A stretch of DNA of 33,025 nucleotides from Candidatus Parcubacteria bacterium (GTDB lineage: Bacteria; Patescibacteriota; Patescibacteriia; Magasanikbacterales; UBA922), in contig JABGUG010000064.1 in assembly GCA_018646705.1 (NCBI GenBank), positions 1 through 33,025 of the forward strand, in the 5' to 3' direction. Below, piece by piece: positions 1 through 33,025 of the stretch. Numbering within the stretch: position 1 is the first letter of the stretch; every line of letters starts with the position of its first letter. A program made the translations under genes and the position numbers. Below the pieces are notes generated by a model. That model ran no database searches and was not told where the DNA came from. It saw nothing but the letters and a program-made list of their open reading frames with translations.

Positions 1-57
1 CCCCTTCTCGAGATGTTTCATGATCCCGAGCCCGTGTAAAAGGAGCGGTGGATTCAC
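1..57 (-). CDS. Possible partial ORF running off the left edge of GC-rich island 1 (VNPPLLLHGLGIMKHLEKG...)
   Basis: Open frame from a GTG at 57 to the window edge on the minus strand, downstream of the 114-395 ORF; very short. Confidence 0.25.
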   Translation of the reverse strand, partial: MNPPLLLHGLGIMKHLEKG

Positions 58-113
58 CTCGTCTCATCTACACGATGGATGAGAGGAGGTGGTGCAGGAG
101 TCCAGGGATTCTG

Positions 114-395
114 CTAGGTCTCGGGCGGGCCGTCGTCCAGTTGCAGGCTTCGTACGTGCTCCAGAGCCTCGTTGATGTTTCGACGGAAGTTCTTCGCCCC
201 GTCGAGCTCGCTGAAGCTGCTTTGTGCACCTACCAGAAGCGCGACGAGTTTCTGGTGTTCTGCCTGAGAAGGGAAATCATCCGCAGAGAGCACAAGTGCG
301 AGCTTTGCGCCGACGACCTTTCCATTCAGGCCGTTCAGGTCTGGAGGAAGCTCATCGTCTAGAAGCATGTTAATGAGGCCTACCGCAGATTTCAT
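114..395 (-). CDS. Small acidic protein of unknown function (93 aa), GC-rich island 1
   Basis: ORF with ATG start inside a GC-rich block (row 121-180 has 37 G/C of 60), directly downstream of a TTGACA-N17-TAGCTT promoter on the same strand. Confidence 0.65.
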   Translation of the reverse strand: MKSAVGLINMLLDDELPPDLNGLNGKVVGAKLALVLSADDFPSQAEHQKLVALLVGAQSSFSELDGAKNFRRNINEALEHVRSLQLDDGPPET

Positions 396-425
396 ACGTC
401 GTCTCGACGTGGTTTTTGCATAGTT

Positions 426-14351: not shown

Positions 14352-15344
14352 CTATGACTTACAAGCGTTTAGACAGCTTTCATAAGCACCGGTACCACAA
14401 TGGTCATAATAATTATCCCAACATGAATCATCGCAACCAGCTTCCATACCACAACCATAAAATAGATTAAATTTTGTACAAGCACCACGACAACTTAATA
14501 ATTGGTACATATGATCACCAGAATGTTTTACGCATTCTTCAACTATTTCTTGACCGCATTTTATCTGGCATAAATACATTTTACTATCACAACTTCCAAC
14601 TCCTTCTGGACGAGTTACTTGTCCGTGACCGTCTTCCATGCCTGGTTTTCCACCATATTCTTGTATCTGGGTTTCTCTTTTTAATTCAAGTACTGCTGGA
14701 GTTGTGGTGTCTGTGACGCCTAGTTCATTTAAATTAAGTGTTTTGTCAGGGCCTCTGTCAGGTAAGGTGGCGTTCTCTAATGCAGCTTTGTCTTGTTTGT
14801 CTGTCGCTTCAATCACTTTTGGATCTTTATCATATTCTTCAATTGTATATTGTGGTAAGTCTTCATATTCAGGAGTTGTAGTGTCTGTTAGTGTCAATCT
14901 ATCTCTTTTAATATTTAATTTCCCTTCCTCAGATTTTAAATCTATTAGTAATTCTTTTTTTATGTTATTAGTTTCTTCAAGTTTTATTTTTATTTTATCG
15001 AGCCATTCTTTTTTTATTTCCTCATCCTCTGTTTTTTTAGCAATGTTCATTGCTTTTTTTAATAATTTTTCAGAAGAACCTAAAATTTTTCCAACTAATT
15101 CTAGTTTTGATTTATTTAGCATTTCTTTAGCTTCAATTATTCTTTCTTCAGCTAGGTTTATAAATCTTTCTATTTTCTTTTCTTTACCAAAAGTAAAAAT
15201 ATTTTTAACACTTTCTCCAAATTTTTCAAAGGTATAAAAAGGGCTGTCTGGCATAACACCTGCTTTTTCTATTTTGTCTGTGGCTAGTGTAGGTGAGACA
15301 ATTAGAAAAAGTAGTAGTGAAATTATTATTAGTTTTTTAGTCAT
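14352..15344 (-). CDS. Secreted protein: DUF5667-like N-terminus plus Cys-rich C-terminal domain
   Basis: Signal peptide, AGVMPDSPFYTFEKFGESVKNIFTFGKEKKIERFINLAEERIIEAKEM; 12 Cys in the last ~78 aa. Confidence 0.75.
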   Translation of the reverse strand: MTKKLIIISLLLFLIVSPTLATDKIEKAGVMPDSPFYTFEKFGESVKNIFTFGKEKKIERFINLAEERIIEAKEMLNKSKLELVGKILGSSEKLLKKAMNIAKKTEDEEIKKEWLDKIKIKLEETNNIKKELLIDLKSEEGKLNIKRDRLTLTDTTTPEYEDLPQYTIEEYDKDPKVIEATDKQDKAALENATLPDRGPDKTLNLNELGVTDTTTPAVLELKRETQIQEYGGKPGMEDGHGQVTRPEGVGSCDSKMYLCQIKCGQEIVEECVKHSGDHMYQLLSCRGACTKFNLFYGCGMEAGCDDSCWDNYYDHCGTGAYESCLNACKS

Positions 15345-19583: not shown

Positions 19584-19612
19584 TTGACAGCGGTTATCTT
19601 TTTTGTTAAGTT
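19584..19612 (+). promoter_or_regulatory. Sigma70-type promoter for island 2
   Basis: TTGACA (19584-19589), 17-nt spacer, TG-T-TAAGTT (19607-19612). Confidence 0.72.
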
Positions 19613-19640
19613 CAATTAGAAATCTAATCGAGGTTCTTCG

Positions 19641-19880
19641 GTGGAAATGCAAACAGCCGCGGAAATTCGCAGTACCATAGTCCGTTGCTTATCTAGGAGC
19701 AACAGCGTCGATCTCGTCACAGAAGAGATGGAGACCGTCAGACTTCTTGCCGGAACTTTTTCCATCTGTCCGAGGTCGGAAAAGGTAATCGGTAAGACGA
19801 CCGTCGACGGGGAAGATCTCGAGCTCTGTCTGGCCAACCTAATGTCTTCCAAAGAGATATCGCGTTTCGCGACGAGCTGA
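19641..19880 (+). CDS. Small protein of unknown function (79 aa), island 2
   Basis: GTG start with GAGG 7 nt upstream, GC-rich, promoter directly upstream. Confidence 0.65.
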   Translation: MEMQTAAEIRSTIVRCLSRSNSVDLVTEEMETVRLLAGTFSICPRSEKVIGKTTVDGEDLELCLANLMSSKEISRFATS

Positions 19881-19931
19881 AGAAACAAAACGATCCGCGT
19901 TTCGTGGATCGTGCAACCTTGAGGTGCTGAA

Positions 19932-20111
19932 GTGACAGATTCGAGTACGATCCATAGCCAGCCCAGCCACCTTCAGAGGGCTCGAGAGATCCTCGAGCGG
20001 GATGGTATGATCAGATGGCTCAAGTTCAGGATCGGGATTTCCTTCGATCTCGACAAGATCCGCCAGCTCGGTAGCGAGCTGTTTTCGCTCGAATATGAGT
20101 CATTGTTGTGA
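19932..20111 (+). CDS. Small protein MTDSSTIHSQPSHLQRAREILERDGMIRWLKFRIGISFDLDKIRQLGSELFSLEYESLL (59 aa), island 2
   Basis: GTG start preceded by GAGGTG; below the length cutoff of the supplied track. Confidence 0.55.
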   Translation: MTDSSTIHSQPSHLQRAREILERDGMIRWLKFRIGISFDLDKIRQLGSELFSLEYESLL

Positions 20112-20154
20112 GAGCCCAGAACACCGCCCGCCAAACACGGGCAAGGAGGTTATG

Positions 20155-20295
20155 ATGCACAATCGTGCACCGCCCCGACGCAAACGTTCTTCACGCGCGC
20201 GACGTCGGGGAGAACAAAAAGCAGTCCATAAGTGGACTGCTTTTTGTTTGATAGAAAATATTTTATATTTATTTTGCAATGGAAACTATGAGTAG
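20155..20295 (+). CDS. Possible Arg-rich small ORF (MHNRAPPRRKRSSRARRRGEQKA...), island 2
   Basis: AAGGAGG 5 nt upstream of the ATG; the frame runs through the terminator at 20214-20247, so the 3' end may be truncated or fused. Confidence 0.35.
   Translation: MHNRAPPRRKRSSRARRRGEQKAVHKWTAFCLIENILYLFCNGNYE
20214..20247. terminator. Intrinsic bidirectional terminator closing island 2
   Basis: ACAAAAAGCAGTCCA-taag-TGGACTGCTTTTTGT. Confidence 0.9.
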
Positions 20296-20484
20296 CAATA
20301 TTGAAATAATAATAAATATACCACCTATATAAAAATAAGATTTTAGACCTCGGTTTGGATCATACTTGATATGAAGTTTTTTTAGCAGGTATGTTTGAAA
20401 TTTGTAGATTTTTTTTGGAAAAAGAATCATGAGTAAACCCGCGATGAGGAATATTCCTGCTCGGATTGCAAATAGTTTATCCAT
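20269..20484 (-). CDS. Small membrane protein
   Basis: 71-aa ORF with two hydrophobic helices. Confidence 0.6.
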   Translation of the reverse strand: MDKLFAIRAGIFLIAGLLMILFPKKIYKFQTYLLKKLHIKYDPNRGLKSYFYIGGIFIIISILLLIVSIAK

Positions 20485-20502
20485 ACATTTTTGTTATGTA
20501 TA

Positions 20503-21225
20503 TTATTTTTTTCCACTAAAAATATCAAGTATGTCTTGGGCTGACTCTTCACCAATTGTTTTTTCAAAAAAATCAAGACGATCAAATTTCTTGAGTAGAA
20601 CAAAAACAAATATTATAGAACTCGCAAATGCTCCTTTGAGTAGAGAGGCGTATACCAGCCCTTGTGTTGGCATCATTGATAATGAAAGGAAGAGTACCGC
20701 AGCAAGAAAATAAAGAAGAATCCATTGAAATTGAGGAATGCGTTCTTTGTGTAGAGCAATCATGCTTTTTCTAATCTGTTGCAATATCAAGAGGCCTGCC
20801 ATGATACGATTTATTGCAGCATGACCCAAAGAAGGTAATTTTTTCTCTCCTACGGTTTTTTCTAATAAATTATGTACATCAGTCAAAGTAGTAGATTTAT
20901 GTGTAAAATTATAATCCCAAGCTTGGTTTTTTAATATTTGTTTATAATGTTTTTCAATTATTTTCTTGATTTTTTCTTGAGCTTCTTTGCCTAAGTGTCT
21001 AGTTTGACGATAAAGGCTAGACATAATTCCATCAAATTCTGTTATTCTGTCTCGTATGTCACTATAGCGACTACCTTGTCGTGATATAAAGAATCCAGTA
21101 AAAATAGAAAATAAAAATGTAGATATAGTGAGAAGAGTTTTGTAATAATCTAAATATCCAAAAGGAATATAAAAATATAAAATAGATAAAAATATAAAAA
21201 TAAAAGGCGTGAGATAAAATGTCAT
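20503..21225 (-). CDS. Membrane protein (DUF4239-like)
   Basis: Four hydrophobic helices around a helical loop, SSLYRQTRHLGKEAQEKIKKIIEKHYKQI. Confidence 0.65.
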   Translation of the reverse strand: MTFYLTPFIFIFLSILYFYIPFGYLDYYKTLLTISTFLFSIFTGFFISRQGSRYSDIRDRITEFDGIMSSLYRQTRHLGKEAQEKIKKIIEKHYKQILKNQAWDYNFTHKSTTLTDVHNLLEKTVGEKKLPSLGHAAINRIMAGLLILQQIRKSMIALHKERIPQFQWILLYFLAAVLFLSLSMMPTQGLVYASLLKGAFASSIIFVFVLLKKFDRLDFFEKTIGEESAQDILDIFSGKK

Positions 21226-21291: not shown

Positions 21292-21325
21292 AAGAAAAAG
21301 CAACTCTTATTAAGAGTTGCTTTTG
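21292..21325. terminator. Intrinsic bidirectional terminator closing island 3
   Basis: GCAACTCTTA-t-TAAGAGTTGC flanked by A-rich tract and TTTT. Confidence 0.88.
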
Positions 21326-21381
21326 CAAGTCCCCAACGATCGGTGCGACTGCGGTTGATAGTTGGGGGCCTCCTTGCGAGC

Positions 21382-22032
21382 CTACTTGCCGGGAGGCTCA
21401 GTGTGTTCGGTGTGTTTGAGGTGCTCGGTCCGCTGGATGATCTCGCATTCTTCTTGCGAGAACCGATTACACTTCGGTCGTTCTGGCACGATGTGCTCGG
21501 AGTTCCATCCGTTGGCACACACGAACGTGAATGTCGCCGGGTACGGCCTACCCGGGTAACGGGTGGTCCAGAAAGGGATTAGCCTTTCTCCGCATGCGGC
21601 GATCTCTTCTGCCACGATGATTTCCTCAGTAGTGCGGCAGTGCTCACAGGGCTCATGCGCGGCGTGTTCGGTGTTTCGTATGTCTATGCAGGAGTTCAGA
21701 TCCCGGGTATTGCACCGGGGTGGATCCATCTGCAATTCCCAGTCATTGTCGTTGATGCAGACGAAACGCTCCTCTCCACGGGGTATGTTTACAAAGCCGG
21801 ACGCCCATCCGTGTTTCTTGTATCCATACATTGCGCATAGCTCGGTCTCTTCGGCCTCGGCGATCTCCTCGAGAGATCGGCAGTCGCAGGAGGGTCCTGT
21901 CGGTTGGAGGTTTTCCGAAGGTGCCGCCACGAGGGTGACGAGCAAGACCGATCCGATCAACAGACCGAAGGTTAGGTAGACAGTCCCTTTGCTGCATTTA
22001 CGGTAGTTCTCTCGTATCTTCACTAGGGTCAC
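21382..22032 (-). CDS. Predicted membrane-anchored secreted protein with two tandem Cys-rich repeats (start at GTG 22032 or GTG 22023), island 3
   Basis: TM helix GTVYLTFGLLIGSVLLVTLVAAP, then two units CxCRSLEEIAEAEETELC...FVCIND.W...PPRCN...NSCIDIRNTEH and CEHCRTTEEIIVAEEIAAC...FVCANGW...RPKCN...EECEIIQRTEH. Confidence 0.75.
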   Translation of the reverse strand: MTLVKIRENYRKCSKGTVYLTFGLLIGSVLLVTLVAAPSENLQPTGPSCDCRSLEEIAEAEETELCAMYGYKKHGWASGFVNIPRGEERFVCINDNDWELQMDPPRCNTRDLNSCIDIRNTEHAAHEPCEHCRTTEEIIVAEEIAACGERLIPFWTTRYPGRPYPATFTFVCANGWNSEHIVPERPKCNRFSQEECEIIQRTEHLKHTEHTEPPGK

Positions 22033-22055
22033 CTAAAGTGAGGGTTTCAGTAATA

Positions 22056-22084
22056 TATTTATCATAAAAGAAGAGGTTTGTCAA
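22056..22084 (-). promoter_or_regulatory. Sigma70-type promoter for island 3
   Basis: TTGACA (22079-22084), 17-nt spacer, TG-A-TAAATA (22056-22061). Confidence 0.75.
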
Positions 22085-25070: not shown

Positions 25071-26756
25071 ATGAAAAAAATTATTCTCTTTCTATTTTGT
25101 TTATTTTTACTACCTAGTCAAGCTAATGCAGTCACTGGTTTTCTTGGTAGTCAAGGTGTTTGGATGTCAGAAGGAACGTCTTTTGCAGGTGACACAGTAA
25201 AACTTTATACAGTGGTGGTAAACAATAGTGCGCCACGACTTTCTCTTACTGTTGAATTTTATGATGGAACAGCACTTATCAATAATGTGACAGTGAATAA
25301 TCTTACATTTGAAGAAGCAAAGCAGGTTTGGGTAGAATATGTATTGCCAGCTGGTGAACAACAGTTTTCTGCAAAGCTTGTGAGTCTGGATGCACGAGAT
25401 AATGTAGGAAATTCAGTTGATGCAAATATCAATCAAACTGAACAACAATCTCAAAATTATGATATTGATCTAGATACTGATGGCGATGATGTCGGAAACA
25501 AGGAAGATACTGATGATGATAATGATGGGCTAACTGATGCTAAAGAATCTGAACTGGGTTCTGATCCATTGAAAAAAGATACAGATGGAGATGGTATAGA
25601 AGATAAAACAGAAGTAGATAGAGGATTATCCCCAACAAATGTTGATTCTGATGGAGATGGTCATAATGATAATATAGATCTTTATCCAACTGATAAAAAT
25701 GAATGGGCAGATATAGATGGCGATGGCACTGGTGATAACGCTGATACCGATGATGATAATGATGGACTCAGTGATGAAGATGAAGAAAAACTTGGAAGCG
25801 ATCCTCATAATCCTGACTCAGATGGAGATGGTCTGACAGATGGCGAGGAAAAAGAGCGCGGAAGTAGTCCGATGTCACAAGATACTGATCTAGATGGAAT
25901 TCTTGATAAAGATGAGGTTGACGCAGGTACAGATCCTGCAAAAGCTGACACAGATGATGATGGACTTAGTGATGGAGAAGAATATACACTCAAAACAAAT
26001 CCTCTTGAAAGTGATACAGATGGTGATGGATTGAAAGATGGCGAAGAAAAAGAAAAGGGGACAGATCCTTTGAAAAAAGATTCTGACGGAGACGGAGTAG
26101 ATGATATGACTGATTTATTTCCACTTGATAATAGTGAGGCATATGACACCGATCTTGATGGAATAGGAAATAATGCAGACGAAGATGACGATGGTGATAA
26201 CGTTTCTGATATAGAAGAAGGTGAGGCTGGAACAAATCCTTTGAAAAAAGATTCTGATGAGGATGGTTTGGAAGATAATATTGAAATAGAAGCAGGTACA
26301 GATCCAATGAACCCAGATTCTGATGAAGACAGAATGATGGATGGTGAAGATGATGAACCTCTTGTGTTTAACAAAGGAAGAAAATGGTTTAGCACTGGAT
26401 ATCTTGTATTTTTAGCAGGTCTTGCATTTGTATTTTTCTTGTTATTTAGTGTAATGTATTACTTGAAGTGGAAAAAAACCGACAGCAGCGATGATGTGCA
26501 AGATGATGACGACGTCGAAGAAGAGGTCGTTGAATTAGAAGAAAGTGATGAAACGGTAGGGGAGACTCTAGAGTCTCCCGAAGATGAATCCACCTCCGCT
26601 AAAGCTTTGTCGGACGAGGAGGAATTAGAAGAAGAATGGGAAAGCGGTGTAGAGGATGCTCGAGAGTCTCCTGAAGAGGGCGATGAAGACGAAGACGCAG
26701 AACCTACTAAACCTAAACCAAAAAAGAAATTAAAAAAGAAAAAATCTAAAAAATAA
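25071..26756 (+). CDS. Surface protein with thrombospondin type-3 (Ca-binding) repeats, TM helix and charged cytoplasmic tail
   Basis: Signal peptide; many DxDxDGxxDxxE units; TM STGYLVFLAGLAFVFFLLFSVMYYLKW; Lys-rich C-terminus. Confidence 0.9.
   Translation: MKKIILFLFCLFLLPSQANAVTGFLGSQGVWMSEGTSFAGDTVKLYTVVVNNSAPRLSLTVEFYDGTALINNVTVNNLTFEEAKQVWVEYVLPAGEQQFSAKLVSLDARDNVGNSVDANINQTEQQSQNYDIDLDTDGDDVGNKEDTDDDNDGLTDAKESELGSDPLKKDTDGDGIEDKTEVDRGLSPTNVDSDGDGHNDNIDLYPTDKNEWADIDGDGTGDNADTDDDNDGLSDEDEEKLGSDPHNPDSDGDGLTDGEEKERGSSPMSQDTDLDGILDKDEVDAGTDPAKADTDDDGLSDGEEYTLKTNPLESDTDGDGLKDGEEKEKGTDPLKKDSDGDGVDDMTDLFPLDNSEAYDTDLDGIGNNADEDDDGDNVSDIEEGEAGTNPLKKDSDEDGLEDNIEIEAGTDPMNPDSDEDRMMDGEDDEPLVFNKGRKWFSTGYLVFLAGLAFVFFLLFSVMYYLKWKKTDSSDDVQDDDDVEEEVVELEESDETVGETLESPEDESTSAKALSDEEELEEEWESGVEDARESPEEGDEDEDAEPTKPKPKKKLKKKKSKK
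26560..26579. repeat. Protein-coding palindrome (second family)
   Basis: GGGAGACTCTAGAGTCTCCC, perfect 20-bp palindrome encoding GETLESPED in frame; degenerate partner around 26653-26680. Confidence 0.75.
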
Positions 26757-28352: not shown

Positions 28353-28478
28353 ATTAATCCACACTTCGCTTTTTACTCACCACAACATATGTAAGTTCTA
28401 GTGAATATTTGCGGCGAAGTGGGGATGCCGCGATAGGAGTTGCGTCCGTGGTTAGCGGTCGGCGGGCTCGTTCGTGGG

Positions 28479-28700
28479 CTAGCTGGTCTGGGTCATCCGG
28501 GTCAGGGCCATTCCGTCGGCGACTCGGACGATACCAGAGTAGGTCTTCGGAGCTGCCTGGCCGTGGGTGCGAGCGATCACACGACCTTCGGAGCTCGTGG
28601 ACATCTCAATCCTGACTTCAGCCACGCCGGCGAATTCAGTTCCCTCGATGTTGCGGATCGCCGTCATGAGGTGGTGCATCGCTTCGTTCAGCTCTTCCAT
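28479..28700 (-). CDS. Small protein of unknown function (73 aa), island 4
   Basis: ATG start with GAGGG about 8 nt upstream, GC-rich (row 28501-28560 has 38 G/C of 60), promoter on the same strand. Confidence 0.7.
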   Translation of the reverse strand: MEELNEAMHHLMTAIRNIEGTEFAGVAEVRIEMSTSSEGRVIARTHGQAAPKTYSGIVRVADGMALTRMTQTS

Positions 28701-28761
28701 GTGTATTCCCTCTATAGCATCTACGCACTCGCAAGACGCGAGATCTTGAAGACGTCATATC

Positions 28762-28790
28762 AATCTAACATAAAAAGAGGTGTTTGTCAA
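28762..28790 (-). promoter_or_regulatory. Sigma70-type promoter for island 4
   Basis: TTGACA (28785-28790), 17-nt spacer, TG-T-TAGATT (28762-28767). Confidence 0.75.
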
Positions 28791-32671: not shown

Positions 32672-32839
32672 CTATTGAAATATATAAAAAAACCGCCGAT
32701 GAGGCGGTTTTACTATTCTTATTACCACTCGTGATAATAACAACAGTCGAAGGAGGGCGCGGTGAACGTACGCGCCTTCCTTTTTGCGTTGCCCAACATT
32801 GTTGGACCATGCGATGATTGAGGCTGTTGCCTTCGTCAT
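32672..32839 (-). CDS. Possible small ORF (MTKATASIIAWSNNVGQRKKEGAYVHRALLRLLLLSRVV...), island 5
   Basis: GAAGGAGGGAGTG-ATG strong Shine-Dalgarno; the frame reads through the terminator at 32683-32714. Confidence 0.4.
   Translation of the reverse strand: MTKATASIIAWSNNVGQRKKEGAYVHRALLRLLLLSRVVIRIVKPPHRRFFYIFQ
32683..32714. terminator. Intrinsic bidirectional terminator
   Basis: AAAAAACCGCC-gatga-GGCGGTTTT. Confidence 0.85.
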
Positions 32840-32884
32840 CACTCCCTCCTTCATCTGTGGGTCCGAGAACCCTCGTGACCAGGT

Positions 32885-33025
32885 TTATGAGACCTGGCTC
32901 CTGCGCTCAACGCGCTTGCGCGCCATCTCGGCGTCGTAGGCCTGAACGGCATTACGCCCGATCAAGGCGCGCATGCTCGTGCGACCAAGCGCGATGCCGA
33001 TCGCCGATGTGGCAGTGATCGAGCG
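32885..33025 (-). CDS. C-terminal part of an ORF entering from the right edge, island 5
   Basis: Uninterrupted 47-codon frame ...RSITATSAIGIALGRTSMRALIGRNAVQAYDAEMARKRVERRSQVS*, GC-rich. Confidence 0.55.
   Translation of the reverse strand, partial: RSITATSAIGIALGRTSMRALIGRNAVQAYDAEMARKRVERRSQVS

Follow-up and report, generated by a model that had tools for sequence, protein, structure and literature searches.

According to its sequence, the gene described here encodes a membrane-anchored protein in which a six-cysteine domain occurs twice in tandem, a domain that is narrow in distribution and lies outside any known family. It was found in a 33,025-nucleotide stretch of DNA (the window) from a Candidatus Parcubacteria genome of about 1.04 Mb. 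We propose, with a probability of roughly 45%, that its product may be a lineage-specific, disulfide-braced surface binding protein whose partner changes. The features of the gene and of its counterpart in a sister species are listed in Table 1.

The gene and its counterpart in a sister species

A first scan of genome contigs returned no match, and among 145 relatives one clear match was found, in the congeneric 'Candidatus Parcubacteria' isolate BM521 (PKTJ01000010.1). When the two genes were compared frame by frame, the coding frame scored 97, as against at most 41 for the other frames, and 500 shuffles did not exceed 53; by this sequence comparison the gene is genuinely coding. The open reading frame is counted from its first GTG. 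Since the two species have in common both the leader and a GTG three codons downstream, the common start at 22023, which yields a product of 213 aa, is probably the working one.

The BM521 gene, like that of the window, stands beside DUF5661 between conserved neighbours. The BM521 protein resembles that of the window in its locus, transmembrane anchor, six cysteines, H-x-x-H motif, promoter and 3' UTR, and the 3' ends of the two genes (..EPP[GV]K stop) are alike at the DNA level. It differs in having one domain instead of two, followed by a small overlapping transmembrane (TM) ORF where the second domain stands in the window, and its identity is only about 25%. The G+C-rich two-gene unit termed island 2 and a 104-aa gene are also present at the BM521 locus, with their order kept. 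In the window, a bestrophin-like gene and a 71-aa TM-like ORF (20269-21225, minus strand) separate island 2 from the Cys-repeat gene (island 3), whereas in BM521 both are absent and the two islands are directly convergent. At the DUF5661 loci of other genera (L015-L020), no comparable Cys-rich TM gene was seen beside DUF5661. Neither mobile-element genes nor attachment-related genes lie next to the Cys-repeat gene; no association with attachment genes, a check proposed in the original prediction, was found. Elsewhere in the window, 14352-15344 (minus strand) encodes a DUF5667 protein whose C-terminal tail is rich in Cys, and 25071-26756 (plus strand) a membrane protein that carries nine TSP3 repeats of the bacterial type, possibly a calcium-binding surface protein.

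Table 1. Features of the Cys-repeat gene, of island 2 and of the corresponding BM521 locus (L032, PKTJ01000010.1)
Feature	Position	Strand	Basis or remark
216-aa ORF	21382-22032	-	first GTG as start; coding by frame-specific conservation with BM521
Extended -10 promoter (TTGACA, 17-nt spacer ending in TGA, TAAATA)	22056-22084	-	sequence
Single transmembrane helix, residues ~16-35	21928-21987	-	hydropathy, full-length model, basic residues ahead
Repeat 1, six-Cys domain (C49, C51, C66, C92, C107, C115; H-A-A-H end)	21652-21897	-	alignments
Repeat 2, six-Cys domain (C129, C132, C147, C172, C188, C196; H-L-K-H end)	21403-21651	-	alignments, AlphaFold2
3' UTR hairpin CCCCAAC...GUUGGGG, conserved loop core GCAGUCGCACC	21331-21367	-	
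Intrinsic terminator	21296-21324	-	sequence; conserved in BM521
Island 2, two-gene unit	19641-19880 and 19932-20111	+	BM521: L032 5969-6449 (-)
BM521 one-domain protein	L032 5099-5530		same locus, adjoining DUF5661
BM521 overlapping 65-aa single-TM ORF, in place of repeat 2	L032 5520-5717	+	

Two six-cysteine domains behind one membrane helix

The tandem duplication of a Cys-rich domain, first proposed from the letters of the sequence, was confirmed. The two repeats, of ~80 residues each, are 33% identical and align with a score of 68, while 1000 shuffles gave 25.6 +/- 4.8 and a maximum of 56; the repeat signal was confined to the coding frame (best score 82, as against 50 or less in other frames). 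On the strength of these alignments the two halves of the protein are homologous. Six cysteines were indeed found in each repeat, but only five are in register, the first being offset by one residue (C-x-C vs C-x2-C). Across the three domain copies, five of the six Cys columns are invariant, compared to 9 of the ~80 other columns (Fisher p = 3e-4); a W, an F and the terminal H-x-x-H are likewise invariant in all three. Of the longer signature that had been put forward, the repeat itself stands, but the details do not: 'FVC-x-N-x-W' is spaced differently in repeat 1, 'P-[RK]-C-N-x-R' matches repeat 1 only and 'C-x-I-I-x-R-TEH' matches repeat 2 only.

The expected single N-terminal TM helix was also recovered. 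The protein has one hydrophobic segment (maximum mean hydropathy 2.2), preceded by five K/R and one acidic residue. This segment was modelled as a helix (15-35) that is the best-confidence part of the full-length AlphaFold2 model; that model, made from one sequence, is otherwise poor (pLDDT 38.7) and was relied on for the TM helix alone. The genome encodes one VKOR and four DsbA-like Thioredoxin_4 proteins, and disulfides outside the membrane are therefore plausible. These oxidative-folding proteins, together with the positive-inside rule, suggest that the N-terminus is probably cytoplasmic and that the repeats would lie outside. A cleavable signal peptide (LVTLVAA-PSEN) is conceivable in this species.

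Predicted fold of repeat 2

When repeat 2 was modelled by AlphaFold2 from an alignment of three sequences (repeat 2 with repeat 1 and the BM521 domain), a confident fold was predicted (the best model reached pLDDT 81.7 and pTM 0.65; of the five models obtained, two scored near 80 and three near 60). The modelled order is alpha-beta-beta-beta-alpha, with helix 14-26, strands 31-37, 46-52 and 58-60, and helix 73-88. A Foldseek search of the model against the PDB and the viral library BFVD, a comparison that the original prediction had proposed, returned nothing at E <= 0.001, and the matches listed reached a TM-score (query) of at most 0.38. The dsRBD fold, represented among the top matches by 2n3g and 1whq, has the same order of elements as the model; with E values of 0.37-0.58, 12-14% identity and TM-scores of 0.24-0.28, against a threshold of TM > 0.5, it was rejected.

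In the model, the two histidines of the invariant H-x-x-H (residues 83 and 86) stand at i/i+3 inside the C-terminal helix. One possible explanation for this arrangement is that the protein is a metal-binding envelope domain, in which the cysteines and the helical H-x-x-H would build one or several sites for a metal to be taken up, stored or sensed; the His-rich C-terminal tail of the protein (HLKHTEHTE) is in keeping with such a role. We consider it rather unlikely, though a serious alternative: the number of cysteines per domain is even, the domain probably lies outside the membrane of a cell equipped with oxidative-folding proteins, and no Pfam metal-binding family was matched.

Searches for related families

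The earlier statement that no known family carries this signature was upheld by searches of Pfam, NCBIfam and PADLOC, which gave no match, and of PHROGs, in which the best match had E = 0.13. No match was found in phages, plasmids or PDB sequences (best PDB sequence-profile E = 0.07), and literature searches yielded no description of this protein. Profile searches for the repeat in 46 family, 383 class-level and 382 phylum-level genomes, conducted with a profile of three sequences that distant relatives can escape, matched the two congeners only. Additional weak matches, in L003 (E 0.003) and in three genomes of the family (L007-L009, E 0.02-0.07), were set aside as chance, as they were short, interrupted by stops or overlapping other genes.

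Rapid divergence and possible function

Between the window species and BM521, the Cys domain shows an amino acid identity of 25-26% and a dN of 0.93-0.94. The corresponding values for the neighbouring genes are 98% and 0.01 for DUF5661, while two others gave 87% with a dN of 0.08 and 76% with a dN of 0.14. The dS is ~1.6 in the Cys-repeat gene and 0.9-2.1 in the neighbours, so that silent sites are near saturation and the dN/dS of about 0.5 obtained for the Cys-repeat gene is a rough figure. Judged from these rates, the rapid divergence could reflect weak constraint instead of diversifying selection.

According to the proposed scheme, the product would be a single-pass membrane protein with its N-terminus inside and, beyond the cytoplasmic membrane, a small alpha-beta-beta-beta-alpha domain present twice in tandem. 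The six cysteines of each domain would brace it, probably by pairing into three disulfides with the help of the VKOR/DsbA-like proteins. The Cys scaffold would be retained while the remaining surface changes fast and the number of domain copies varies. A fixed scaffold, a fast-changing remainder and a variable copy number lead us to suggest that the domains, if exposed at the surface, would most likely evolve under diversifying pressure and bind a changing partner, which may be the surface of a host or neighbour cell, a phage or the product of a competitor. There is a precedent for a surface protein that is both hypervariable and anchored through its N-terminus (PMC6851277). Similarly to the protein described here, the PTD-repeat protein of Gracilibacterium BD1-5, a related candidate-phylum bacterium, has one N-terminal TM helix, is predicted to be extracellular and is variable; it differs in that its short PTD repeats lie in coil, with no Cys domain described, and in that it varies at the nucleotide level while the protein remains constant (PMC6851277).

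The rapid change and the separate promoter would also be explained if the product were an envelope inhibitor or exclusion protein, anchored so as to stop the entry of phage DNA or the toxin of a rival at the membrane. Size, topology and fast evolution agree with this scenario, as does the two-gene arrangement of BM521 with its second small TM protein. Set against it are the lack of any PADLOC, PHROG or phage match, the absence of adjacent mobile-element genes and a locus that is the same in both species, and we regard it as unlikely.

Promoter, terminator and 3' hairpin

As had been claimed, the gene has its own promoter and terminator, both of which were located. The promoter of BM521 has the same architecture (TTGACG...TGATAAACA). 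The 3' UTR, comprising the hairpin and the terminator, is about 82% identical to that of BM521, as compared to 44% for the coding part, and is predicted to fold at -30.6 kcal/mol with z = -5.0 (z = -3.5 in BM521). The hairpin motif occurs in 2 of 115 genomes, those of the window species and BM521, and had no Rfam match; two sequences are too few for proof by covariation. Island 2, too, has a terminator and a conserved 3' hairpin, the loop of which is different.

The strong fold and the higher conservation of the 3' UTR might indicate that the function resides in the RNA more than in its product: a structured transcript, conserved in its 3' UTR hairpin, with a weakly constrained ORF. This reading appears very improbable in view of the frame-specific protein conservation, the repeat, the Cys framework and the confident protein fold, and the absence of an Rfam match also argues against it.

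The islands of the window share one promoter form, TTGACA-N17-TA with a TG closing the spacer, seen at 454 (-), 19584 (+), 22084 (-) and 28790 (-). Of the 15 TTGAC-N15-TGnTA sites counted in 159 kb of this genome, 7 lie ahead of a G+C-rich stretch, the background rate being 7.8% (binomial p = 6e-5, an optimistic value because the pattern had been seen in the window before counting and the sites of the window were included); for non-extended sites the count was 2 of 27.

A G+C-rich island shared with the sister species

The coding sequence of the Cys-repeat gene has a G+C content of 56% and a GC3 of 0.68, compared to GC3 values of 0.20-0.30 in six window genes. The description of the gene as far more G+C-rich than its surroundings was therefore correct, but the impression of foreignness that it conveys needs revision: the gene is an old resident, syntenic in BM521. 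The difference from neighbours with a GC3 of ~0.3 is what a recent import, still unadjusted to its AT-rich host, would show. This origin seems quite unlikely, as the gene is syntenic in BM521 with its promoter and 3' UTR conserved, and as its GC3 is 0.68-0.73 across both species (neighbours 0.28-0.38) even though the near-saturation of silent sites implies that there was time to drift to the local GC3. A recently acquired island would be missing at this place in close relatives, whereas BM521 carries it. Repeated replacement out of a G+C-rich pool, between conserved flanks, may be a further scenario.

G+C-rich islands were observed in the window (1-420, 19600-20240, 21340-22050, 28400-28780 and 32740-33025) and, in a survey of ten sampled contigs beyond it, in L022-L031. 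Contigs often stop inside islands (both window ends; L022, L025, L027, L028, L030 and L031), as if these hindered assembly. In island 2 the first protein is 45-47% identical to its BM521 counterpart, and the GC3 values are 0.60 and 0.68; no family match was obtained, and among 46 family genomes it was found in this genus only; the row isl2b of the two-species comparison, misframed for this genome, was left aside. No counterpart of the island 4 protein (28482-28700) was found in BM521. A second case against recent import is the island gene at L023 9593-10147: it encodes a thioredoxin-like protein (WCPSC; the Pfam score is weak) that is also lipoprotein-like, and its relative in another genus (L047) is 31% identical; their GC3 values are 0.70 and 0.72, each amid AT-rich DNA. 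An island at L028 2-409 (minus strand) holds an unrelated Cys-rich, apparently exported protein, the ORF of which is cut by the contig end.

We tentatively suggest, while holding it to be the less probable outcome, that these islands form a whole class of short, fast-evolving genes, often for exported proteins, dispersed over these AT-rich genomes. Each would have an extended -10 promoter and a terminator to itself; their high G+C would be kept up actively, through selection or through a mutational or recombination bias of local extent, and together they would make up a variable surface or secreted repertoire. The general pattern of maintained G+C-rich islands is more surprising than the domain itself, but few cases support it. 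A G+C richness kept over near-saturated silent sites poses a puzzle as to what determines composition inside a single genome.

Candidate-phylum bacteria are believed to rely on other cells, yet many of their surface proteins await identification. A molecule of contact or defence would be expected to combine a fixed Cys scaffold with a surface and a copy number that change, and the Cys-repeat protein would offer a concrete target of this kind.
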